This document shows, piece by piece, positions 9,538 to 27,334 of a stretch of DNA of 64,000 nucleotides. Each line of letters starts with the position of its first letter. Position 1 is the stretch's first letter. The DNA is from Sphingomonas sp. ATCC 31555 (GTDB taxonomy: Bacteria; Pseudomonadota; Alphaproteobacteria; Sphingomonadales; Sphingomonadaceae), in NCBI RefSeq assembly GCF_000282895.1, contig NZ_ALBQ01000014.1, positions 124,001 through 188,000 on the forward strand. The letters are read 5' to 3'. The notes beneath the pieces are model-generated. The model was not told the origin of the DNA, did no database searches, and saw nothing but the letters and a program-made list of their open reading frames with translations. The position numbers were made by a program, and so were the translations under genes.

Positions 9538-10511
9538 GCCTGCATGACGAACGCACGGATCCGCCCCAGATTTTCGCGCGAGCTCGCGAGGATGCCGTGG
9601 CGTTCGGGTGGTAGGTGGGCGAGCGGGTGTCCGTCCAGGCGAAAGGCATAATGATCGAAATAGGCGCGCCAGGCGGCGCGTTCCGCGGCGGGGCGCTCGG
9701 CCAGCGTGGTCATCGCCAGCAGCATGGCGGTGTAGGGCGAGTCCGGGCCGGTCGCGAACCCGTCCCACCAATAGTTGAGCAGCAGATTGAACGGGGCGGT
9801 TCCCTCCACCGCATGCCACCATAATTTGGGCAGGTAGAGCGCATCGCCCGGCTCCAGCTCCACCGTCTGCGCCCGCGCCCGCGCCGCGGCGAAGCGCGGG
9901 TATCGCGGGTCGTTGTCGGGGGCCATCGCGGCAAGGCTCACCGGCTGGCCCGCCATCGTGTGGTCGATCGGCCCGACATACAGGTCCGCGATCGCGTCCG
10001 GCGGGTAGAGGGTGAATCGCCGCCTACCGGCCATCACGCAGGCCAGATTGTCAAATCGATCATAGTGGCATGCCACGAACGACGCATTGCCCACCCAAAC
10101 CCCCGGCCTGACTCCCAAGGGCGCCAAGGGCAGCGGGTTCGCTTCGGCCAGGCCGGGCAGGTGCACCTCGGCAGGGAGCGAGCCCAGATACAGGGACTCT
10201 CCACCCGGCCCCGTCGCGGCAGCTCGGATCCGAGCCAGTGCAGCAGGCAGCGCCAGCGTCTCGCGGGCGAAGTTGAAGCCGTCCGCTCGATCGCCATAGC
10301 CGTAGCGACCGCCGATATCGGGCGGACCGACAAAGGCCTGTGCCGATGCGCCTGAATCGAAAGTGAGCAGATAGGGGATGAGCGTGTCGATCGAGCGAGC
10401 GGCTTCGTGCAGCGGCAGGTGGGCGCCCAGCCCGCGGAGCACCACCGGCTCGCACGCCAGCCGATGCGTATCGAATGCCGCCCGATCGGCGCCGTGAAGC
10501 GTGGCAATCAT
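9522..10511 (-). CDS. Cupin-like (JmjC-type, cupin_8) protein of the SapC/TonB sugar locus
   Basis: This 329-residue protein of the cupin_8/JmjC fold keeps an HxD...H facial triad: HYDRFDN (His149, Asp151) and LPKLWWHAVEG (His233). These residues would bind Fe(II) in a 2-oxoglutarate-dependent dioxygenase. FTLYPPDAI and the proline/tryptophan-rich strand are also family features. I place the start at the ATG reading MIATLHGADR, 7 nt after the sapC stop, because the longer frame would run into sapC. Relatives are repeatedly found beside SapC, TonB receptors and tryptophan halogenases in sphingomonads, xanthomonads and caulobacters, but the substrate is unknown. It is co-transcribed with sapC. 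Confidence 0.75.
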   Translation of the reverse strand: MIATLHGADRAAFDTHRLACEPVVLRGLGAHLPLHEAARSIDTLIPYLLTFDSGASAQAFVGPPDIGGRYGYGDRADGFNFARETLALPAALARIRAAATGPGGESLYLGSLPAEVHLPGLAEANPLPLAPLGVRPGVWVGNASFVACHYDRFDNLACVMAGRRRFTLYPPDAIADLYVGPIDHTMAGQPVSLAAMAPDNDPRYPRFAAARARAQTVELEPGDALYLPKLWWHAVEGTAPFNLLLNYWWDGFATGPDSPYTAMLLAMTTLAERPAAERAAWRAYFDHYAFRLDGHPLAHLPPERHGILASSRENLGRIRAFVMQALRGG

Positions 10512-10518
10512 CGCGGCA

Positions 10519-11196
10519 CTATGCGGCCAACTGCCGGTTGCGACGTGCGGCGAGAACCGGAATCTGCCGCAGCGAGCCCGCCATCGCATAGATGAGTGCT
10601 AGCTGGCCCGATCGGAACAAGCCCAGCGCCGTTGCATCGTCCAGCGCGTGCACGCCATCCAGGCTCACCGTGTACAACCCAGCCAGTTGCAGCGTGCGAC
10701 CATCGTCGAACCGCAGCGACAGATCGATCGGTTCGACCAGCCCATGAGCAAGCAGCGCGTCAATGAAGAGGGTGCTGGCATCGGCACCGCGATGGAGTTG
10801 CGCCAGCACCTGTTGGATGCGGCGCAATGCGGGAGCGGGGGTGCCGTCGTCTCCAAAGAGCGGTTCCCCTTCTTCGGTACTGAACCGCGCCGCCCGAGCA
10901 TCGATGGCAATCGATTCCCCGGCGATCAGAAAGCCGTCGCGTTCCAGCACCAGCGGCCAAAAGCCGGCATCGGGGCGCAGCTCGACCAGAGTCTCGCCCG
11001 GCTCGAATCCCAGGATCGCGCCGGTATAGAAGCGGCCGGTCTCAGCGTCCTTGGTCAATAGCACGGGGCAGCACGCCGCGGCGGCGGCGAATTCCTCGGG
11101 AACGATCGGGACGAAGTGCGGCAGCGGCTTCGCGCTGGGTCTCAGCCGCAGCCCGCGATGTTCGGCCGAATCGAGCAAAATCATATCCTCTGCCAT
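10519..11196 (-). CDS. SapC family protein
   Basis: This 225-residue protein matches the SapC family: HFVPIVPEEFAAAAACCPVLLTKD near the N-terminus, then FYTGAILGFEPGE, a central DGFLIAGE-type segment, and a C-terminal helical part with GLYTVSLDGVHALDDATALGLFRSGQLALIYA. No signal peptide is visible at the chosen start. The ATG at 11196 follows a GAGAGGA Shine-Dalgarno sequence; the longer frame has no such support. SapC was named after an S-layer-associated gene in Campylobacter, but in this genomic setting its role is unknown. It probably supports the TonB-dependent glycan system encoded divergently. Confidence 0.8.
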   Translation of the reverse strand: MAEDMILLDSAEHRGLRLRPSAKPLPHFVPIVPEEFAAAAACCPVLLTKDAETGRFYTGAILGFEPGETLVELRPDAGFWPLVLERDGFLIAGESIAIDARAARFSTEEGEPLFGDDGTPAPALRRIQQVLAQLHRGADASTLFIDALLAHGLVEPIDLSLRFDDGRTLQLAGLYTVSLDGVHALDDATALGLFRSGQLALIYAMAGSLRQIPVLAARRNRQLAA

Positions 11197-14469: not shown

Positions 14470-14504
14470 GGGATGCCGGTATCGTCCGGCATCCCTTCTT
14501 TTTG
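14470..14504 (+). terminator. Rho-independent terminator after the TonB receptor gene
   Basis: GGGATGCCGG pairs perfectly with CCGGCATCCC around a 6-base loop and is followed by TTCTTTTTG. The hairpin starts 19 bp after the receptor stop and ends just before the halogenase start. Halogenase expression therefore depends on read-through or on a promoter within the hairpin region. Confidence 0.85.
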
Positions 14505-14519
14505 CACGGGTCGAAACGG

Positions 14520-16061
14520 GTGAAACGGGTTCGTAACATCGTCATCGTCGGGGGCGGCACCGCCGGTTGGCTTGCTGCGGGAGTCATTGCCGCCCGGCAC
14601 CAGAGCCGGATGCCCGGCGGTTTCACCGTAACCCTGGTCGAATCGCCCAATACGCCGATCATCGGGGTGGGCGAGGGGACCTGGCCCACGCTTCGGACGA
14701 CGCTCGCCAAGATCGGCGTCTCCGAAACCGACTTCTTCCGCGAGTGCGATGCCGCCTTCAAGCAGGGCGCGCTGTTCGCCCGCTGGACCACCGGCGCCGA
14801 GGACGACGCCTATTACCACCCGCTCATGCTGCCCCAGGGCTTCCACCAGCTGAGCCTGGTGCCGCACTGGATCGCCAACGCACAGGGTCGCAGCTTCTGC
14901 GACACGGTCACGCCGCAGGGCCGGATCTGCGACGCGGGGCTTGCCCCCAAGACGATCGCGACGCCCGAATATGACGGGCAGGCCAACTATGCCTACCACC
15001 TGGATGCCGGCAAGTTCGCGCCGTTCCTGACCCGCCACTGCACCACCAAGCTGGGCGTGCGCCACGTGCTCGCCGATGTCCGCTCGGTCGAGCAGGCCGA
15101 GAATGGCGATATCGTCGCGATCGACACCGAGCAGGCGGGGCGGATCGAAGGCGATCTGTTCGTCGACTGCACCGGCTTCCGCTCGCTGCTGCTCGGCCAG
15201 ACGATGGGGGTGCCGTTCAAGGATTGCGGAGACGTACTGTTCTGCGACGCCGCGCTGGCCGCGCAGGTACCGTATCCGGAAGAGAACGCCCCGATCGCTA
15301 CCCACACGCTGTCGACCGCGCAGGATTCCGGCTGGATTTGGGACATCGGCCTGCCGACCCGACGCGGCACCGGCTATGTCTATTCTACCCGCCACACCAG
15401 CGACGACCAGGCCGAGGCGACGCTGCGCGCCTATCTGGGGCCGGCCGGCGCCGACGCGAGCGTCCGCCGCATCCCGATCCGCTCGGGGCATCGCGAGATC
15501 TTCTGGAAGAACAATGTCGTCGCAGTCGGCCTTGCCGCCGGCTTTCTCGAGCCGCTGGAGGCCTCCGCGATCGTGCTGATCGAGCTCTCGGCCAAGCTGA
15601 TCGCCGAACAGATGCCAGCGGTGCGCGAAGTGATGGACGTGGTGGCGAAGCGCTTCAACGCCACCACGCTCTATCGCTGGGGCCGGATCATCGACTTCCT
15701 CAAGCTGCACTATGTGCTCACGCAGCGCACCGATTCGGCCTTCTGGCGCGACAATCTGCTGCCCGAGACGATCCCGGAGCGGCTGCAGGAGCTGCTCACG
15801 CTGTGGCGCTACCAGCCGCCCTGGTTCCATGACGAGTTCGATCGGGTGGAGGAGGTGTTTCCGCCTGCCAGCTACCAATATGTCCTCTACGGCATGGGCT
15901 TCCGCAGCGAAGTCGAGCCGGAGTCCCTGTCGAGCGACCAGCGCCTCGCCGAGCGTGCGATGCGCGAGAATGCCGCGCAGACCGAACGGCTCTGCGCCGG
16001 CCTGCCGCGGCACCGCGACCTGATCCGCAAGATTCACAAACACGGGCTGCAATCGGTCTGA
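14520..16061 (+). CDS. Flavin-dependent tryptophan halogenase family protein
   Basis: This 513-residue protein of the Trp_halogenase family (PF04820) has the FAD-binding GGGTAGW at residues 11-17 and GVGEGTWP. A lysine in CDAAFKQGALF (Lys81) fits the catalytic Lys79 of RebH/PrnA. The second halogenase motif WxWxIP appears as WIWDIGLP (272-279), so Pro is replaced by Gly. I start it at the GTG at 14520; an in-frame TTG at 14502 would lie in the terminator. Homologues are common next to TonB receptors in sphingomonads, xanthomonads and caulobacters with no known substrate. Halogenation of tryptophan is not assured. It precedes GH3 by 22 bp, suggesting one operon. Confidence 0.85.
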   Translation: MKRVRNIVIVGGGTAGWLAAGVIAARHQSRMPGGFTVTLVESPNTPIIGVGEGTWPTLRTTLAKIGVSETDFFRECDAAFKQGALFARWTTGAEDDAYYHPLMLPQGFHQLSLVPHWIANAQGRSFCDTVTPQGRICDAGLAPKTIATPEYDGQANYAYHLDAGKFAPFLTRHCTTKLGVRHVLADVRSVEQAENGDIVAIDTEQAGRIEGDLFVDCTGFRSLLLGQTMGVPFKDCGDVLFCDAALAAQVPYPEENAPIATHTLSTAQDSGWIWDIGLPTRRGTGYVYSTRHTSDDQAEATLRAYLGPAGADASVRRIPIRSGHREIFWKNNVVAVGLAAGFLEPLEASAIVLIELSAKLIAEQMPAVREVMDVVAKRFNATTLYRWGRIIDFLKLHYVLTQRTDSAFWRDNLLPETIPERLQELLTLWRYQPPWFHDEFDRVEEVFPPASYQYVLYGMGFRSEVEPESLSSDQRLAERAMRENAAQTERLCAGLPRHRDLIRKIHKHGLQSV

Positions 16062-16083: not shown

Positions 16084-18714
16084 ATGAACCGCACGATTCG
16101 CGCCGCCCTGCTGGCCGCTGTGCTCACGCCGCTGCCTGCGCTGGCGCAGACCGCAAGCGAGGCCGATGCGAAGGCGGCCGCCATCGTCGCGCAGCTCACG
16201 CCCGACGAGAAGATCGGCCAGTTGCTCAACGCCGCACCCGCGATCCCGCGTCTCGGCATCCCGCGCTACAACTGGTGGACCGAGTCGCTCCATGGGGCGC
16301 TCGGCACACTACCGACCACCAATTTCCCGGAGCCGATCGGCCTTGCCGCCAGCTTCGATGCGCCGCTCGTTCATGACGTCGCCGCTGCGATCAGCCGCGA
16401 GGTGCGCGGCCTTCACGCGCTTGCCCGCGAAACCGGAAGAATGGGGAGGATCGGCACCGGGCTCGACACTTGGTCGCCCAACATCAACATCTTCCGGGAT
16501 CCGCGCTGGGGGCGCGGGCAGGAAACCTATGGGGAGGATCCGTTCCTCGCCGCGCGGATGGGTGTCGCCTTCGTGGCCGGCATGCAGGGGCCGAATCCGG
16601 ACCTCCCCAATGTGATCGCCACGCCCAAGCATTATGCGGTGCATAGCGGGCCCGAATCGACGCGCCACGAAGCCAATGTGTTCGTCTCGCGCCACGATCT
16701 GGAGGATACCTATCTGCCGGCGTTCCGCGCCGCGATCGTCGAGGGCAAGGCGGGATCGGTGATGTGCGCTTATAACCGCATCGACGGCCAGCCCGCCTGC
16801 GCCAGCGACATGTTGCTGAAGGAGCATCTGCGCGGCGCCTGGGGCTTCAAGGGATTCGTCGTGTCCGATTGCGACGCGGTGAAGGATATCAGCGACAACC
16901 ATCATTATGCTCCCGATGGTGCAGCGGCGGTAGCGGCGGCGATCCGCGCGGGCGTCGACAATGAATGCAACGGCGCCACGCTTACCGACACGGCGGGGCT
17001 GGGCGATCGCTACCGCGAAGCGCTGGCTCGGGGCCTGATCACGCAAGGCGACATCGATCGCACGCTGGTGCGGCTGTTCTCCGCCCGATTGCGTGTCGGC
17101 GATCTTCCGGGCATCCGCGCGGCGACGGGCAAGCGCAGCGATGTCGGCGCCCCGGCGCACCGCGCCCTGGCGCTCGATGCGGCCGAAAAGAGCCTGGTGC
17201 TGCTCAAGAATGATGGCCTGTTGCCGCTGAAACGCGGCAGCCGCATTGCCGTGATCGGCCCGCTTGGCGATGCCCCGCGCGTGCTGCGCGGCAATTACTC
17301 TTCGCCGCAGTCGGGCGAGCCGATCTCGGTGGTGGAAGGGCTGCGTCGCGCCTTCCCGCGCGCCAATGTCCGCTACGCACCCTTCGGTGCCTCGGTCACC
17401 GATGGCGACCCGGTGCCCGGATCGGCGCTGCGCACGCCGGACGGCAAGCCTGGACTTCTCGCCCGCTACTTCAACCCGGTGACGCCGCCGCCTGCGGAGT
17501 TCGCCCCCGGCACCTTCCGCGACATCACCGCCAAGATGCAGTTCGCCGACACGCCGGTGGTGACTCGCGTCGAGGCCGATGTCTCCGCCCGCAGCCTCGA
17601 TCTGCCGACCGTCTCCGAGCATCACCGCACGATCTGGACCGGCTTCCTCGTGCCGCCCGAGACCGGCACCTACCGCCTGGGCCTGACCGGCTTTGGCGGC
17701 GCGATGACCTTCGAGGGCAAGCCCTTTGTCGACCTCACCAAATCCGGTTGGGGCAGCCTGCCGACGATGCGCGAGGTGCGGCTGGTCAAGGGCAAGCGCT
17801 ACCCGATCGAGGTGCGAACCGACGAGCATGTCCTCTCCGGCATCGACCTCGTCTGGAAGCGCATTGTCGCCGATCCGATGGCGGAGATGAAGGCGGCCGC
17901 CGCAAGGGCCGATGTGCTCGTGGCGGTGGTCGGCATCACGTCCGATCTAGAGGCCGAGGAGTCCCCGGTGCAGATCCCCGGCTTCAAGGGGGGCGACAAG
18001 ACCAGCCTCGATCTGTTGCCGGATCAGCAGGCGCTGCTGGAAGCGGCCAGGGCAACCGGCAAGCCGCTCGTCGTGGTGGCGATGAACGGCAGCCCGATCA
18101 ACCTCAGCTGGGCCAAGGACCATGCCGCCGCGATTCTGGAGGCCTGGTATCCGGGCGAAGTGGGCGGCACCGCGATCGCCAATGTGCTGTCGGGCAAGAC
18201 CAGCCCCTCGGGCCGCCTGCCGCTAACCTTCTATCGCAGCGTCGACGATCTGCCGCCCTTCGGCGATTACAGCATGCAGGGGCGTACCTATCGCTATTTC
18301 ACCGGTACGCCGGTCTATCCGTTCGGCCACGGCCTCAGCTACACCCGCTTCGCCTATGCCGCGCCGCTGGTGGAGAAGGACGGGGCAGGGGTGACGATCA
18401 CGGCGGAGGTGCGCAATAGCGGCGCCCGCGCAGGCGACGAAGTGGCGCAGCTCTATCTCGACTTCCCCGAGGATCCGGGTGCTCCGCGGCTGGCGCTGCG
18501 CGGCTTCCAGCGCGTGTCGCTGAAGCCGGGGGAGGCGCGGCAACTGCGCTTCGCCCTCGCCCCGCGCGATCTGAGCGCCGTGACGGTGGAGGGGCAGCAT
18601 CGGGTGCTGGCGGGCCGTTACCGCGTGACCGTCGGCGGCGGGCAACCGGGCACCGGTGCGCCAAGCGCGTCGGCGGACTTCACGATCGAGGAACCGGTCG
18701 ACCTGCCCGATTGA
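16084..18714 (+). CDS. GH3 beta-xylosidase/beta-glucosidase with PA14 insertion, secreted
   Basis: This 876-residue protein has a signal peptide ending ALAQ (residue 22). The first GH3 domain contains YNWWTESLHGALG, the WSPNINIFRDPRWGRGQETYGEDP block and the nucleophile in GFVVSDCDAV (Asp262). The second GH3 domain is interrupted by a PA14-like module, roughly residues 455-600 (GLLARYFNP to DLVWKRI). An FnIII-like domain ends the protein (YPFGHGLSYTRF, then RGFQRVSLKPGEARQLRFAL). PA14 inserts in GH3 shape substrate specificity. Beside arabinofuranosidase and esterase it fits xylan side-chain or oligosaccharide cleavage. ATG start with AAGGGAT upstream; likely co-transcribed with the halogenase. 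Confidence 0.92.
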   Translation: MNRTIRAALLAAVLTPLPALAQTASEADAKAAAIVAQLTPDEKIGQLLNAAPAIPRLGIPRYNWWTESLHGALGTLPTTNFPEPIGLAASFDAPLVHDVAAAISREVRGLHALARETGRMGRIGTGLDTWSPNINIFRDPRWGRGQETYGEDPFLAARMGVAFVAGMQGPNPDLPNVIATPKHYAVHSGPESTRHEANVFVSRHDLEDTYLPAFRAAIVEGKAGSVMCAYNRIDGQPACASDMLLKEHLRGAWGFKGFVVSDCDAVKDISDNHHYAPDGAAAVAAAIRAGVDNECNGATLTDTAGLGDRYREALARGLITQGDIDRTLVRLFSARLRVGDLPGIRAATGKRSDVGAPAHRALALDAAEKSLVLLKNDGLLPLKRGSRIAVIGPLGDAPRVLRGNYSSPQSGEPISVVEGLRRAFPRANVRYAPFGASVTDGDPVPGSALRTPDGKPGLLARYFNPVTPPPAEFAPGTFRDITAKMQFADTPVVTRVEADVSARSLDLPTVSEHHRTIWTGFLVPPETGTYRLGLTGFGGAMTFEGKPFVDLTKSGWGSLPTMREVRLVKGKRYPIEVRTDEHVLSGIDLVWKRIVADPMAEMKAAAARADVLVAVVGITSDLEAEESPVQIPGFKGGDKTSLDLLPDQQALLEAARATGKPLVVVAMNGSPINLSWAKDHAAAILEAWYPGEVGGTAIANVLSGKTSPSGRLPLTFYRSVDDLPPFGDYSMQGRTYRYFTGTPVYPFGHGLSYTRFAYAAPLVEKDGAGVTITAEVRNSGARAGDEVAQLYLDFPEDPGAPRLALRGFQRVSLKPGEARQLRFALAPRDLSAVTVEGQHRVLAGRYRVTVGGGQPGTGAPSASADFTIEEPVDLPD

Positions 18715-22941: not shown

Positions 22942-23007
22942 ATGGCGGAGCAGATCCAACGTACCGGCGGCAAGCCGACATCGACGCGGGCGGGCGCCCG
23001 CGCGTGA
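22942..23007 (+). CDS. Possible 21-residue leader ORF of the ulosonate cassette
   Basis: An ATG preceded by GGAGTAGGC opens a 21-codon frame (begins MAEQIQRTGG, ends ARA) whose TGA overlaps the GTG start of the next gene as GTGA. The strong ribosome-binding site here, and the lack of one at the GTG, suggest that translation of the downstream gene is coupled to this short frame. No homology is recognizable. It could equally be a non-conserved upstream ORF, or the true start region of the next gene in another frame. Confidence 0.45.
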   Translation: MAEQIQRTGGKPTSTRAGARA

Positions 23008-24188
23008 GGATTCTCTTCTATCTGCCCGTCGTCACGCCCTGGTGGTTCGAACATATCGTCGAGCCGCTCCTCCGGCGCGTCGCCAGCGTCGCGGAGGTGC
23101 ATGTTCTCGCGCCCGCTCCCTGGCGCAACACCGGCCTGGGCGAGGACGAACTGCGCCGCTGCACCGATCTGCCATCGGTGCAATGGGCGATCGTCGATGG
23201 CGAGGATCACCCGACCCTGCGTACCGTTCCCGCCGACCGCGACGGGCTGATTGCCTATGTTCGCGGGTTGGCGCCCGATCTTGTACTGTGCCGCACCGCC
23301 GACTTCGATACGCCGCGCGCTTTCCCGGGCGTGGTGCGCTACATCATGGAAGCGGTGACGACGCCGTTCGATCTCGTCTCGGCAGCCAACACCGTCCATT
23401 TCACCGACAGCCCGTTCGTCAATGGCGCGATGCCGGAGTTGGCCCCCGGCGATGCGGCCCGGCTGGAGGCGCTGTTCGCGCCGGCCTGGGCCGACATGCA
23501 GGCTTATTGGCAGGCCGCCTGTCTCGATCGCGTGGACGTGTACCGCACGCTGGGCTTGCACGAGGGTCGCCCCACGCTGCTGCTTCCGCTCGAATATGAG
23601 CATGAGGAGAATTTCTACCTCCAGCACCGCCCCGGCGGCGCAAGCAATCGCGATCTTGTTGCGCAGGCGGCGGCCGCGGTGAAGGGCCGCGCCACGCTTC
23701 TCGTAACCGATCATCCGCTCAACGCGCTGCATGTCGAGCGCGACGCGTTCCTCGATTACGTCCTTGCGCTGGACGATGTCGTCTATGTCGAAGATCCGAT
23801 CTTCGATGTATCGCCCACCACCGCGCTGGCGCGGCATGTCGATGGCGTGCTGCTCCACGATTCGAAGAGCTTCGCGCTGGCGGCGGCATTCGGCCGGCCG
23901 ATGCTGCGCCATTCGCGTTTCGCCAGCGCCGACTGGCTGCGCGATCGAGGCGACCTGGCGGCGTTCGTGAAGGCGGTGGCAACCGGGAAGGCCGCTCGGG
24001 CAGAGGACGCGGCTGCCCGCCGCTGGTTCGCCTACCACCTCGCGAACGAAGCCTTTTATCCCACCGATCCGGCGCTTACCGGCGCGACGGTCATCGATCG
24101 GGCGCTCCGTCCGGTCGATCCCGGCCGCTGGGATGCGGCGATCGCTCGCATCAACGTGCGCAACCCCGCGCTGGAGGTGGCGGCATGA
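23004..24188 (+). CDS. Putative glycosyltransferase, capsule (KpsC/KpsS-like) type
   Basis: This 394-residue soluble protein begins with a GT-B-like strand (MRILFYLPVVTPWWFEHIVEPL). Its second half reads LLVTDHPLNALHVERD, then VVYVEDPIFDVSP, then DGVLLHDSKSFALAAAFGRPML. That order, a His-Pro motif followed by a Ser-rich turn before a glycine-proline loop, recalls the capsule polysaccharide biosynthesis family (PF05159) that includes the KpsC/KpsS Kdo transferases. No signal or membrane segment is visible. The GTG start overlaps the leader ORF stop, and its TGA overlaps the kpsF ATG. With KpsF, a cytidylyltransferase and KdsA following, transfer of Kdo or a related ulosonate is a reasonable inference. 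Direct family membership is uncertain. Confidence 0.5.
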   Translation: MRILFYLPVVTPWWFEHIVEPLLRRVASVAEVHVLAPAPWRNTGLGEDELRRCTDLPSVQWAIVDGEDHPTLRTVPADRDGLIAYVRGLAPDLVLCRTADFDTPRAFPGVVRYIMEAVTTPFDLVSAANTVHFTDSPFVNGAMPELAPGDAARLEALFAPAWADMQAYWQAACLDRVDVYRTLGLHEGRPTLLLPLEYEHEENFYLQHRPGGASNRDLVAQAAAAVKGRATLLVTDHPLNALHVERDAFLDYVLALDDVVYVEDPIFDVSPTTALARHVDGVLLHDSKSFALAAAFGRPMLRHSRFASADWLRDRGDLAAFVKAVATGKAARAEDAAARRWFAYHLANEAFYPTDPALTGATVIDRALRPVDPGRWDAAIARINVRNPALEVAA

Positions 24189-25180
24189 AGCTCGGTGCCG
24201 TTGCGCGCACGCGGGAGGCCGCCTCGCCGGCGCTCGCCTGGGCCGGCGAGGTGATCGCCGCCGAACGCCGCGCGCTCGAGGCGTTCGAAGCGGTGCTGCC
24301 GCCGTCGCTCGGCGACGCTGTGGCGGTGATTGCCGGCCATGCCAGCCCGCTGACGTGCCTCGGCATGGGCAAGTCGGGCCTGATCGCCGCCAAGGTCGCT
24401 GCCACCTTTTCCAGCCTGGGCACGCCCGCCTTCGCGCTCAACGCCGGCGAGGCCGCGCATGGTGATCTCGGCGCGGTGCAGGACGGCAATGTCGTGCTGC
24501 TCTTCTCGAACAGCGGCACCACCGATGAGATTCTGCGCATCCTGCCGCTGCTCAAGGCGCGGGCATGCGTGCTGATCGGTGTGGTCGGCAGGCCCGACTC
24601 GCCGCTCGGCCGCGCGGTCGATATCCTCATTCCCGCGGTGATCGCAGGCGAGGCCGATCATATCGGCATGGCGCCCACCGCCAGCACGACGCTGCAACTC
24701 GCGATCGGCGATGCGTTGGCGGTGGCGGTCAGCCAGACACGCGGCTTCACTCGCATGGATTTCCTGCGCCATCATCCCGCCGGCCTGCTCGGCCGCCAGT
24801 CGATTCCGGTGCGCACGCTAATGCGCGTTGGGGACGATCTGCCGACCGTGCTGCCCGATGCGCCGGTGGCCGATCTGCTCGCCGTCATGTCGATGCGGCG
24901 GATGGGTGCTGCCTGCGTCGTCGATCGGGACGGCCTGCTGCTCGGCCTGGTGGTCGACGGCGATGTCCGCCGCCACTTTCAGTCGCGCCGCGACGTGTAC
25001 GATACGCCCGCCGCTACGCTGATGCAGCCGCATCCGCAGGTGATCGATATCGCCGCCACGCTCGGCGATGCGATGCTGATGCTGCGCGAGCGCGAAGGGG
25101 GATTTCTGGTGCTGCCCGTGGTCGACGGTGAGGGACGTCTGCACGGCATGGTCCATGCCAAGGATATGTTGAATGGCTAA
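24185..25180 (+). CDS. kpsF: KpsF/KdsD-type arabinose 5-phosphate isomerase
   Basis: This 331-residue protein has an N-terminal SIS sugar-isomerase domain (LTCLGMGKSGLIAAK, NAGEAAHGDLG, LLFSNSGTTDEILRILP). TASTTLQLAIGDALAVA and FLRHHPAGLLGR then lead into two CBS domains (from about residue 200). This order is that of arabinose-5-phosphate isomerases, which convert ribulose 5-phosphate to arabinose 5-phosphate, the first step to Kdo. HGD after the Gly-Glu turn keeps the catalytic His region. The ATG overlaps the preceding TGA, and the stop overlaps the next start by 8 nt, so the cassette is translated as one unit. Confidence 0.9.
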   Translation: MKLGAVARTREAASPALAWAGEVIAAERRALEAFEAVLPPSLGDAVAVIAGHASPLTCLGMGKSGLIAAKVAATFSSLGTPAFALNAGEAAHGDLGAVQDGNVVLLFSNSGTTDEILRILPLLKARACVLIGVVGRPDSPLGRAVDILIPAVIAGEADHIGMAPTASTTLQLAIGDALAVAVSQTRGFTRMDFLRHHPAGLLGRQSIPVRTLMRVGDDLPTVLPDAPVADLLAVMSMRRMGAACVVDRDGLLLGLVVDGDVRRHFQSRRDVYDTPAATLMQPHPQVIDIAATLGDAMLMLREREGGFLVLPVVDGEGRLHGMVHAKDMLNG

Positions 25181-26501
25181 GCCTCTGAAGATCGTCGCCT
25201 TCGTGCCTGCCAAGGGCAGCAGTGAGCGGGTGGCGGACAAGAACACCCGCATTCTGGATGGCGAACACTTGTTCAAGCGCAAGCTTGTTCAGGCGCTCGA
25301 CTGCACGGCGATCACCGAAGTGTGCCTGGACACCGAAAGCGCGGGCATCGCAGCGCTTGCGGACGACCTGCCGGTCACCTGGCTGCAACGCCCCGCCGAG
25401 CTGGCCAGCAACGCCACCGACGGGCATGCCATGTTCGCCTGGGAATGTTCGCAGCGCCCCGATGCGGATATCTGGATCCAGCTGCTCTGCACCGCGCCGT
25501 TCGTCACCGCCGAGACGATCGGCCGCGCGATCGAACGCCTGCTTGCCGATCCGGAGGCGGACAGCCTCGTCGCGGTCACGCGCGCCAAGCAATATTGCTG
25601 GACCGGGCAGGGCCCCGCCTATGGCACCGGCCGCATTCCCAACAGTGTCGAGCTGCCGGAAACGATCGTGGAGGCGATGAGCCTCTACATCGTCCGCCGC
25701 ACCGGCGAGGGCGCCGCCACGCGCCGCTTCGGCACCCGGCCGATCCTGTTCGATCTCGATCCGATCGAACAGATCGACATCAACCACCATCATGATCTGG
25801 TGATCGCAGAGACGGTCGCCGCAGGCTATCGCCAGGCGGAGGTGACGCGCTTCCGCGCGATGCTGCCGCACCTCTCTTCGCCGGTATTGTCGGATATCCT
25901 CAAGGAGCGCGGCCACCGCGTCGTCCTGCCCAAGGCGCTGCGCCCGACCAGCGGCGGCAAGTTCCTCGGTCGCGCCAAGACTGTCCAGCTCGGCGCGCTG
26001 CCGGAGCGGCCGGATCGCTCGCCCGATGGGCCGTGGAACGGCATCTATGGCGCGCTGCAATCCTATCGCTTCGTGCGGCCGGGCGACGTCATCATGGTCG
26101 CCACCGATCTGCCCGAATATGCCTATTTCGGCGATCTCAACGCCAATCTCGCGATCCGCTCGGGCGCGGTCGGCGCGGTGATCGACGGGGCGACACGCGA
26201 TACCGCCGATGTGCGCACGCTGGGGCTGCCCGTCTATGCCCGCGGCCAGACCTGCGACGACATCAAGTACGAAGGCACGCTGAAGGCAATGAACCGCCCG
26301 ATTGTTATGGGCGACGTCACCATCGCCAACGGCGATGTGGTATTTGCCGATGCGGATGGGATAGTGGCGGTCCCGCGGGCGCTGTGGCCCGAGATCGAGG
26401 AAGCCGCCTGGAACGTGCTGTCGAACGAGGCACGCATCCGGATGCAGGCGGCGCGCGGTCGCGACGTGGATGCGATCCTCGCCGAATGCGGGGCGTTTTG
26501 A
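25173..26501 (+). CDS. Fusion of a CMP-sugar (NeuA/KdsB-like) cytidylyltransferase and an RraA-like aldolase domain
   Basis: This is a 442-residue two-domain protein. Residues 1-225 resemble acylneuraminate/Kdo cytidylyltransferases: the nucleotide loop FVPAKGSSERVADKN (10-24), ELASNATDGHAMF, and LLCTAPFVTAETI. Residues about 230-440 resemble RraA and HMG/CHA class II aldolases. AYFGDLNANLAIRSG leads to VIDGATRDTAD, giving an exact D-x20-R-D-x2-D pattern, the metal/substrate signature reported for that family. LPVYARGQTCDD and VFADADGIVAVP also fit. Context (KpsF before, KdsA after) assigns the first domain to activating Kdo or another 3-deoxy-ulosonate as a CMP sugar. What the aldolase-type domain does is unknown. 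There is no KdsC-like phosphatase in the cassette. Confidence 0.85.
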   Translation: MAKPLKIVAFVPAKGSSERVADKNTRILDGEHLFKRKLVQALDCTAITEVCLDTESAGIAALADDLPVTWLQRPAELASNATDGHAMFAWECSQRPDADIWIQLLCTAPFVTAETIGRAIERLLADPEADSLVAVTRAKQYCWTGQGPAYGTGRIPNSVELPETIVEAMSLYIVRRTGEGAATRRFGTRPILFDLDPIEQIDINHHHDLVIAETVAAGYRQAEVTRFRAMLPHLSSPVLSDILKERGHRVVLPKALRPTSGGKFLGRAKTVQLGALPERPDRSPDGPWNGIYGALQSYRFVRPGDVIMVATDLPEYAYFGDLNANLAIRSGAVGAVIDGATRDTADVRTLGLPVYARGQTCDDIKYEGTLKAMNRPIVMGDVTIANGDVVFADADGIVAVPRALWPEIEEAAWNVLSNEARIRMQAARGRDVDAILAECGAF

Positions 26502-26512
26502 AGGATTTGAAG

Positions 26513-27334
26513 ATGAAGACGGTCAAGGTCGGTGCTCTTGAAATCGCCAACGACAAGCCGGTCGTGCTTGTCGCAGGCCCCTGTGCGATGGAAAGCCGCG
26601 AACACGCCTTCGAAATGGCCGAGGCGCTGACCGATCTCTGCGCCGATCTCGGCATCGGCTTCATCTACAAGAGCTCGTTCGACAAGGGGAACCGCACCTC
26701 GATCGACGCGCCGCGCGGCATCGGCATGAGCGCGGCGCTCCAGGTCTTCGCCGATCTGAAGGCGAAGTTCGGCTGCCCGGTGCTGACCGACGTGCACGAT
26801 GCCGGCCAGTGCGCGCCGGTTGCGGAAGCAGTCGACGTGCTCCAGATCCCCGCCTTTCTCTGCCGCCAGACCGACCTGCTCGTCGCCGCCGCCCAGACCG
26901 GCCGTGCGATCAACGTCAAGAAGGGCCAGTTCCTCGCGCCCTGGGACATGAAGAACGTCGCGAAGAAGCTCGCGTCCTCGGGCAACGAGAACATCATCCT
27001 GTGCGAGCGCGGCGCCAGTTTCGGCTACAACACGCTGGTCAGTGACATGCGCGCGCTGCCGATCATGGCGCAGACCGGCTATCCGGTGATGTTCGATGCC
27101 ACCCATTCGGTGCAGCAGCCGGGCGGGCAGGGCACCAGTTCGGGTGGTCAGCGCGAATTCGTACCGGCGCTCGCCCGCGCTGCTGTCGCCGTGGGCGTCG
27201 CGGCGGTGTTCATCGAAACCCATGAAAAGCCGGACACCGCGCCCAGCGACGGCCCGAACATGGTGCCGCTCGCGGAAATGCCGGCGTTGCTTGCCCGGCT
27301 GAAGGCGTTCGACGCCCTCGCCAAGGCGGGCTGA
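26513..27334 (+). CDS. kdsA: 3-deoxy-8-phosphooctulonate synthase (Kdo-8-phosphate synthase)
   Basis: This 273-residue TIM-barrel protein condenses arabinose 5-phosphate with phosphoenolpyruvate. Motifs are VAGPCAMESREHA, IYKSSFDKGNRTS, DAPRGIGM, LTDVHDA, QIPAFLCRQTDLL and FDATHSVQQPGG. The Cys at position 24 in AGPCAMES places it with the metal-dependent class, which has Cys where the metal-free class has Asn. The ATG at 26513 follows AAGGATTTGAAG and begins 11 bp after the fusion gene. The longer upstream frame is the fusion gene read in another phase. It is the last gene of the cassette and convergent with holA. Confidence 0.95.
   Translation: MKTVKVGALEIANDKPVVLVAGPCAMESREHAFEMAEALTDLCADLGIGFIYKSSFDKGNRTSIDAPRGIGMSAALQVFADLKAKFGCPVLTDVHDAGQCAPVAEAVDVLQIPAFLCRQTDLLVAAAQTGRAINVKKGQFLAPWDMKNVAKKLASSGNENIILCERGASFGYNTLVSDMRALPIMAQTGYPVMFDATHSVQQPGGQGTSSGGQREFVPALARAAVAVGVAAVFIETHEKPDTAPSDGPNMVPLAEMPALLARLKAFDALAKAG

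Follow-up and report, generated by a model that had tools for sequence, protein, structure and literature searches.

A two-domain fusion gene in a Kdo operon

We analysed a stretch of 64,000 nucleotides from Sphingomonas sp. ATCC 31555 (the window), in which one gene on the forward strand (25173..26501; 442 amino acids) joins a half of the cytidine monophosphate (CMP)-ulosonate synthetase type (residues ~1-224) to a half of the RraA/class II aldolase type (residues ~225-442). This fusion gene follows a kpsF/kdsD-type gene for arabinose-5-phosphate isomerase (24185..25180, forward strand), whose end overlaps its start by 8 bases, and precedes kdsA, the gene for 3-deoxy-D-manno-octulosonate (Kdo)-8-phosphate synthase (26513..27334, forward strand), whose ATG at 26513 lies 11 bases past the fusion stop. 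Upstream, with a 4-base overlap into kpsF, lies unkA (23004..24188, forward strand; 394 amino acids), possibly the operon's gene for a GT-B glycosyltransferase. As open reading frames were started at their first start codon, starts and overlaps are approximate. KpsF passed its NCBIfam cut-off (TIGR00393, 226.5 bits versus 203.7) and matched PF01380 and PF00571; KdsA, tested as the protein from codon 4 (26522), passed the equivalog criterion (TIGR01362, 402.5 bits versus 314). The Kdo cassette proposed in a first-pass annotation, made from the letters alone, was thus borne out.

The fusion frame comprises 442 codons with a sole, terminal stop, and the remaining two forward frames across the gene contain 8 and 3 stops. 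Codon-position GC content was uniform, with no break at the junction. Both halves passed Pfam gathering cut-offs, as that annotation had expected. The first half matched the cytidylyltransferase family CTP_transf_3 (PF02348; 25197..25583, forward strand; residues 9-137; 43.6 bits versus 22.6) across its PAKGSSERV..KN loop, with a PNS..LP..E.M motif following; these residues were invariant among the 10 fusions of alignment A4. The second half strongly matched the RraA-like family (PF03737; 25884..26366, forward strand; residues 238-398; 99.5 bits versus 24.5, E 2.9e-28) over a region that contains D321, R342 and D343, with E419 outside it. The closest solved structures were NeuA chains for the first half (9t4z, E 2.8e-12) and RraA-fold chains for the second (3k4i, 3noj, which is a 4-hydroxy-4-methyl-2-oxoglutarate/4-carboxy-4-hydroxy-2-oxoadipate (HMG/CHA)-type aldolase, and 5x15; best E 4.4e-15). 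The source genome (G000) contains one further match to the fusion protein, on the same contig: a stretch of the RraA type with 34% identity.

A sequencing frameshift or chimera between two ordinary genes was ruled out, as 17 of 295 genomes of the genus have the fusion and all 33 viral loci (below) encode it without a break in the frame. The fusion gene is genuine, with two domains in one protein.

The first-pass annotation had likened the first half to NeuA and KdsB. Although far below its cut-off, PseF was the best NCBIfam model (TIGR03584, 43.1 bits versus 205.7), and the KdsB model (TIGR00466, cut-off 155.2) gave no match to the fusion protein at E 0.01. By profile comparison and by its place in the tree (below), the first half is closer to PseF-type enzymes than to KdsB.

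Occurrence and ancestry of the fusion

Genome tallies were made with one genome per species. Beside the 17 full-length copies in the genus, an 18th genome (G292) and a Sphingomonas pituitosa record (L025) carried an internally deleted copy. In both (L025:7440-8435; G292:C21, L047), a deletion within the operon has left a kpsF remnant running into the last third of the fusion, and the adjoining kdsA matches are full length. The gene was found in nine genome_contigs records, eight labelled Sphingomonas (one being the deleted S. pituitosa copy) and one metagenome-assembled genome labelled Erythrobacter. In the genus, kpsF directly precedes the fusion in 17/17 copies, kdsA directly follows in 16/17 and an unkA match stands beside it in 15/17. 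The exception for kdsA is G364, in which kdsA occupies another site, close to KdsB-like and KpsF-like genes. In G203 (L040/L097), counted among the 16, kdsA is matched in two consecutive pieces, and the copy adjoining the fusion looks frame-broken.

At the order level (196 genomes), both halves fell in one match only in G000 among the matches listed; in G058, they are separate genes ~900 bases apart. At the class level (385 genomes), relatives of the first half reached E <=1e-12 in 16 genomes including G000, and the fusions besides that of G000 were in G515 and G741, the latter with the end of the frame shifted. At the phylum level (398 genomes), seven including G000 matched at E 1e-14, with one further fusion, in G874. 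Among plasmids, 722 records matched the fusion protein, none of them across more than 80% of the query.

In a tree of 34 cytidylyltransferases, which included 10 of the 21 bacterial fusions, the fusions formed a single clade (support 99/96), joined next by G058 and G856 (99/94, 12 rows); both KdsB rows lay far outside. These two nearest relatives each have a separate RraA gene in their cluster. The cluster of G058 encodes RraA, a NeuB-family synthase, a cytidylyltransferase and a histidine-type phosphatase, and that of G856 encodes a ribulose-phosphate-epimerase::CBS protein, a 3-deoxy-D-arabino-heptulosonate-7-phosphate (DAHP)-synthase-type protein, a cytidylyltransferase::KdsC-type protein and RraA. 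For the other 20 non-KdsB cytidylyltransferases of the tree, the flank searched (mostly 1.5 kb) gave no RraA match. Because the nearest relatives keep separate RraA genes in their clusters, the partnership of RraA and cytidylyltransferase is probably older than the fusion. In a tree of the RraA halves, the fusions also grouped (84/80) with G856 next, although long branches there were flagged as possibly false joins. The two halves are co-inherited.

In G856, the epimerase domain is joined to a KpsF-like CBS part (L071:1504-2514), and the cluster is a parallel to kpsF-kdsA-fusion. In a sister clade (G566), an HpcH/HpaI aldolase gene (L073:6177-6953) immediately precedes the cytidylyltransferase gene. 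Flagellin genes lie ~5 kb from the fusion in a metagenome-assembled genome (L023:2028-2912) and ~11 kb from it in G874 (L089:234-1418), a proximity that hints at flagellin glycosylation there.

Fusions on viral contigs

A scan of IMG/VR with an alignment of the fusions yielded 33 loci with a complete fusion, 42-48% identical, in which the gene is always a single frame (33/33; 429-445 codons); the contigs contain identical copies (17 distinct among 30). Both Pfam domains scored above cut-off in all three viral fusions tested. The flanks of 12 loci encode relatives of UvsX, UvsY or the gp32-like proteins of L135, and nine others encode a DnaB-like helicase, with the marker families verified on L135 and L144. 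By these flank genes, at least 12 contigs look T4-like and 21 look clearly viral; the viral origin of the other 12 rests on IMG/VR. In a tree of whole fusions, the Sphingomonas copies and the main viral group (17 distinct sequences, L140, L141 and L143 not among them) joined (98/99), with G515, G874 and G741 outside; outgroup branches were very long and the root is unsure.

In 24 of the 33 flanks, we found a relative of at least one of four reference genes. Two of these are weakly MptE-like, under the Pfam cut-off, and that of L143 has no Pfam match. The gene of L140, which is common to L141, has a sialyltransferase match above cut-off (PF00777), and firm evidence for a sialyltransferase-type partner comes from this gene only.

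KdsA, KpsF and NeuB gave no match in the flank searched (up to 5 kb) of any of the 33 loci. Conversely, at least 577 stretches of viral contigs encode a KdsA relative. No RraA match was found in 5-8 kb flanks of the best 80 of these, of 21 viral KpsF stretches or of the best 80 of 439 viral NeuB stretches, and none of the 80 KdsA flanks had a cytidylyltransferase of the fusion's type; beyond these flanks and capped sets, the genes may still co-occur farther along a contig. The cultured phages of INPHARED, queried with the window protein and with a viral fusion, contained no fusion; the only hits of the viral query were stretches of RraA type, from two records of Acinetobacter phage MD-2021a. 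PHROGs gave no match for the four viral fusions tried.

Conservation of the RraA half

The exact D-x20-R-D-x2-D pattern noted at first pass is present in the fusion protein (D321, R342, D343, D346). As it also arose in 51 of 5,000 shuffled versions of the protein, it carries little weight alone, and what counts is the Pfam match and conservation; with a final D or E, the pattern occurs four times, that of the fusion included, in 77,001 residues of open frames in the window. D/E321, N323, R342, D343, D363 and E419 are kept in 33/33 viral proteins (copies counted), and in the six bacterial proteins compared the same positions are kept, except E419 in the broken frame of G741. R342 and D343 align to Arg-123 and Asp-124 of the Pseudomonas putida HMG/CHA aldolase, and E419 reaches Glu-199 only within two residues. 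In that enzyme, the metal is bound by Asp-124 and Glu-199, whereas Arg-123 stabilises the pyruvate enolate (PMC5065237). Over 66 pairs from 12 sequences, the two halves had median ratios of nonsynonymous to synonymous substitution rates (dN/dS) of 0.161 (first half) and 0.193 (second half). The second half is under purifying selection and about as constrained as the first. Conservation of the metal and enolate residues, taken with the purifying selection, makes the RraA half likely to be catalytically active, as the first-pass annotation had leaned towards on another ground, a missing phosphatase.

Kdo pathway genes in genomes with the fusion

KdsA is present in 81 of the 295 genus genomes, including 17/17 with the fusion, and also in the three distant fusion genomes, thus in 20/20 bacterial fusion genomes tested. 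For the tests of KdsB, KdsC, WaaA and Capsule_synth, we chose nine of the 63 KdsA genomes that lack a fusion remnant. A KdsB-like protein (>=116 bits) was found in six of the 17 genus fusion genomes and the other 11, all of which have KdsA, scored at most 45 bits; it was also found in 9/9 of the chosen KdsA genomes without the fusion and in 0/4 genomes tested that lack KdsA. Except for one protein of G364, these genus proteins score below the TIGR00466 cut-off, though the G000 protein exceeds the cut-off of a KdsB subfamily (270.3 versus 234 bits). Capsule_synth (PF05159) tracks KdsB, being strong in the same six fusion genomes, absent in ten and weak in G312; PF05159 proteins are also encoded in eight of the nine KdsA genomes without the fusion. 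WaaA gave no match in any of the 27 genus genomes tested. In G515, G741 and G874, KdsA, KdsB (above cut-off) and WaaA are all encoded elsewhere in the genome, and no KdsA, KpsF or NeuB match stands beside the fusion.

In the 11 genomes without a KdsB-like protein, the cassette is the sole outlet for the KdsA product among those searched, which makes the fusion the natural candidate for the activating enzyme; it probably takes the role of KdsB there. The fusion is thus accompanied by supply genes in a genus without WaaA matches, yet is kept where KdsB already makes CMP-Kdo. As it coexists with KdsB-like proteins in 6/17 genus and 3/3 distant genomes, the simplest reading hints at a product other than CMP-Kdo.

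KdsC scored at most 29 bits (cut-off 106.95) in 17/17 genus fusion genomes and in seven of the nine KdsA genomes without the fusion. The absent phosphatase therefore adds nothing to the case for catalysis, contrary to what had been argued at first pass. The other two, G125 and G294, have KdsC matches of 99 and 98 bits, below the cut-off, within the frame of another cytidylyltransferase. G856 likewise joins its cytidylyltransferase to a phosphatase domain of the KdsC type (98 bits, also below the cut-off), yet RraA follows as a gene of its own. We considered RraA as a substitute for the missing phosphatase and rejected it, because G856 has both and KdsC is likewise absent from most KdsA genomes without the fusion.

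On contig 17 of G000, a capsule locus (L091:7381-12124) encodes kpsF, kdsB and two PF05159 proteins. The 18 kb read there contain no kdsA, and the only kdsA match of the genome is that of the window, on which this locus apparently depends. In G333, a stretch (L093; G333:C4:472000-486000) has a kdsA of 93% identity beside HK and crp genes, with no match to unkA, kpsF or the fusion; KdsB-like and capsule genes lie elsewhere in that genome.

Neighbouring genes

UnkA had no match in Pfam or NCBIfam, nor in a profile search of the Protein Data Bank (best E 0.49). Its structure model (predicted local distance difference test, pLDDT, 65) is GT-B-like. Against the GT99 beta-Kdo transferase WbbB (8cse), it gave Z 11.6 over 280 aligned residues at 5.4 Å, the lowest root-mean-square deviation among listed matches with at least 240 aligned residues, and the best Foldseek rows had low TM-scores (0.2-0.35). 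The residues E116, E202 and H237-P238, invariant in alignment A3, occur in the same order as E158, D232 and H265 of WbbB (PMC9587256), an agreement in order only and with Glu rather than Asp at 202. Comparison of unkA by hhalign gave E 1.7e-5 and probability 78.5 against a gene of the G058 cluster, and nothing against the KpsC-type protein of G000 or the gene beside the fusion in G515 (probability 2.4). As the Z score of WbbB is tied with those of other GT-B proteins, the likeness is a lead only, and unkA is possibly the putative transferase of the operon.

A TylF-type methyltransferase gene lies near the fusion in two Sphingomonas (L022:4919-5728; L096 ~10362-11120) and in the distant G515 (L067:2453-3202; 63% identity). 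PF05711 matched in L022 and L067, and the match region of L096 contains a stop. Further upstream in the window, a gene of the tryptophan halogenase family (14502-16061; PF04820, E 1.8e-120) precedes a long frame (16084-18714) that is glycosidase-like by eye.

Proposed function and alternative explanations

We propose, with about an even chance of being right, that the fusion is a bifunctional enzyme of surface-glycan synthesis, in which the RraA half alters an ulosonate by aldol chemistry and the first half then activates it. In the Sphingomonas operon, KpsF and KdsA would make Kdo-8-phosphate, and a phosphatase presumably encoded elsewhere would free Kdo. Kdo is a 4-hydroxy-2-keto acid and formally the aldol of pyruvate and D-arabinose. 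Enzymes of the HMG/CHA aldolase class open and close the bond of 4-hydroxy-2-keto acids via a pyruvate enolate (PMC5065237), and FlDet, an RraA-family 2-keto-3-deoxy-hexarate dehydratase/decarboxylase, acts on a 2-keto-3-deoxy sugar acid (PMC8563752). Because Kdo has this aldolase-type bond and FlDet has such a substrate, we place the alteration at C3-C4. The C-terminal half, as a metal-dependent domain of the class II pyruvate-aldolase type, would alter the pyruvyl end (C1-C4) of the existing ulosonate before activation, most likely at C4 by retro-aldol cleavage and re-addition, so that the activated sugar would not be plain CMP-Kdo. The N-terminal half would join CMP to this ulosonic acid (a 2-keto-3-deoxy sugar acid), and unkA would transfer the activated sugar.

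Several observations weigh against this proposal. The final acid of the D-x20-R-D-x2-D pattern, exact in the fusion protein, is R, K or A in 31 of the 33 viral homologues and so is not a family-wide feature. The RraA half has no NCBIfam equivalog match above cut-off; it scored 74.3 bits against HMG/CHA aldolase (TIGR02798, cut-off 304.5), and 29.1 and 35.5 bits against the RraA models TIGR01935 (123.8) and PRK09372 (136), both far below. The predicted structure of the fusion is poor (pLDDT 52, 9 close sequences), too poor for active-site geometry. A free aldolase beside KdsA could also destroy Kdo, the viral flanks without a synthase match suit synthesis by the aldolase no less than tailoring, and in the 11 genomes without a KdsB-like protein the fusion may be merely their KdsB, with CMP-Kdo as product.

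Those synthase-free viral flanks, together with the distant fusions of G515, G741 and G874, make synthesis from pyruvate the main rival, although we consider it unlikely. Here, the RraA half would join pyruvate to an aldehyde sugar, and the resulting ulosonate would be trapped by the first half as a CMP-sugar, with no need for a phosphoenolpyruvate (PEP)-dependent synthase. The HpcH/HpaI aldolase gene directly before the cytidylyltransferase gene of the sister clade (L073) fits such a route. It is harder to reconcile with kdsA adjoining the fusion in 16/17 Sphingomonas copies, with the synthases encoded in the G058 and G856 clusters themselves, and with the KdsA that the distant hosts encode elsewhere.

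Next, and still less probable, the RraA half might be non-catalytic, setting the oligomer state, regulating the synthetase or acting on RNA turnover like RraA. RraA-fold proteins form oligomers. RraA of E. coli is a modulator of the RNA degradosome, to which it binds (PMC5065237). The metal and enolate residues, however, are invariant across the 33 viral and six bacterial proteins bar E419 in one truncated frame, and the RraA models score far under their cut-offs.

Slightly more doubtful again is a disposal or proofreading role, in which the RraA half splits free or wrong ulosonate into pyruvate and an aldose and thereby restricts activation to the right acid. The formal make-up of Kdo from pyruvate and D-arabinose would allow this. 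Aldol cleavage is the known activity of HMG/CHA aldolase (PMC5065237), but the PEP spent by the adjoining KdsA would be wasted, and retention of the fusion by phages would be left unexplained. That the protein merely replaces KdsB as an ordinary CMP-Kdo synthetase with the RraA half as a passenger is very improbable. In its favour, KdsA is kept wherever a genus fusion genome lacks a KdsB-like protein (11/11). Against it, the tree places the first half far from both KdsB rows, six genus and three distant genomes encode KdsB-like proteins as well as the fusion, and constraint on the RraA half is about equal to that on the first.

Returning to alteration of an ulosonate by the RraA half, a broader form of the idea is that aldol chemistry at C3-C4 is a regular biosynthetic step, giving a CMP-ulosonate other than CMP-Kdo from one protein in WaaA-less Sphingomonas, other proteobacteria and T4-like phages. 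The step would either remake Kdo, for example as a C4 epimer, or build the acid from pyruvate without PEP, and phages would decorate host or virion glycans. Taken jointly, we regard this as possible at somewhat short of an even chance, below the sum of the two aldol readings because all three groups would have to share the step and its product would have to differ from CMP-Kdo.

Both domains are of known kinds. In the open-licence literature, we found no paper pairing RraA with a cytidylyltransferase, octulosonate or nonulosonic acid, and no description of the pairing, its spread in phages or its co-inheritance. Recurrence in distant bacteria and in bacterial viruses suggests a second domain that either remodels the sugar or makes it. 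Should this half prove catalytic, bacteria and phages would contain an unrecognised class of activated sugar acids, and a fold of RNase regulation and aromatic catabolism would gain a biosynthetic role. For Sphingomonas, with no WaaA match in the 27 genomes tested, the fusion points to a pathway of the Kdo type whose destination is not the usual lipid A core. The fusion is a clean handle on these questions, as its halves can be assayed and mutated separately.

Comparison with known systems

The second half resembles HMG/CHA aldolase (LigK/PcmE; 3noj), to whose residues 81-209 fusion residues 301-427 align with D-x20-R-D kept (E 2.4e-14). In contrast to that enzyme, we noticed no aromatic-degradation gene near the fusion, and the fusion is far below the equivalog cut-offs. 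FlDet, as described in PMC8563752, is likewise an RraA-family protein with a 2-keto-3-deoxy sugar acid as substrate, but it is catabolic, and it is set beside the fusion by description only.

With the acylneuraminate and pseudaminate cytidylyltransferases (PF02348; PseF), the first half shares the fold family and the nucleotide-binding loop; the fusion differs in adding an RraA half and in its PNS..LP..E.M motif, which we take to lie where NeuA has its sugar pocket. KdsB (TIGR00466) is alike in probable role, as the fusion adjoins KdsA and KpsF genes, but the fusion is unmatched by its model and distant in the tree. The cytidylyltransferase::KdsC phosphatase fusions of G125, G294 and G856 offer a parallel in architecture, a cytidylyltransferase of the broad family joined to another pathway enzyme; their partner, however, is a haloacid dehalogenase (HAD) phosphatase, and in G856 RraA stands as a separate, adjoining gene.

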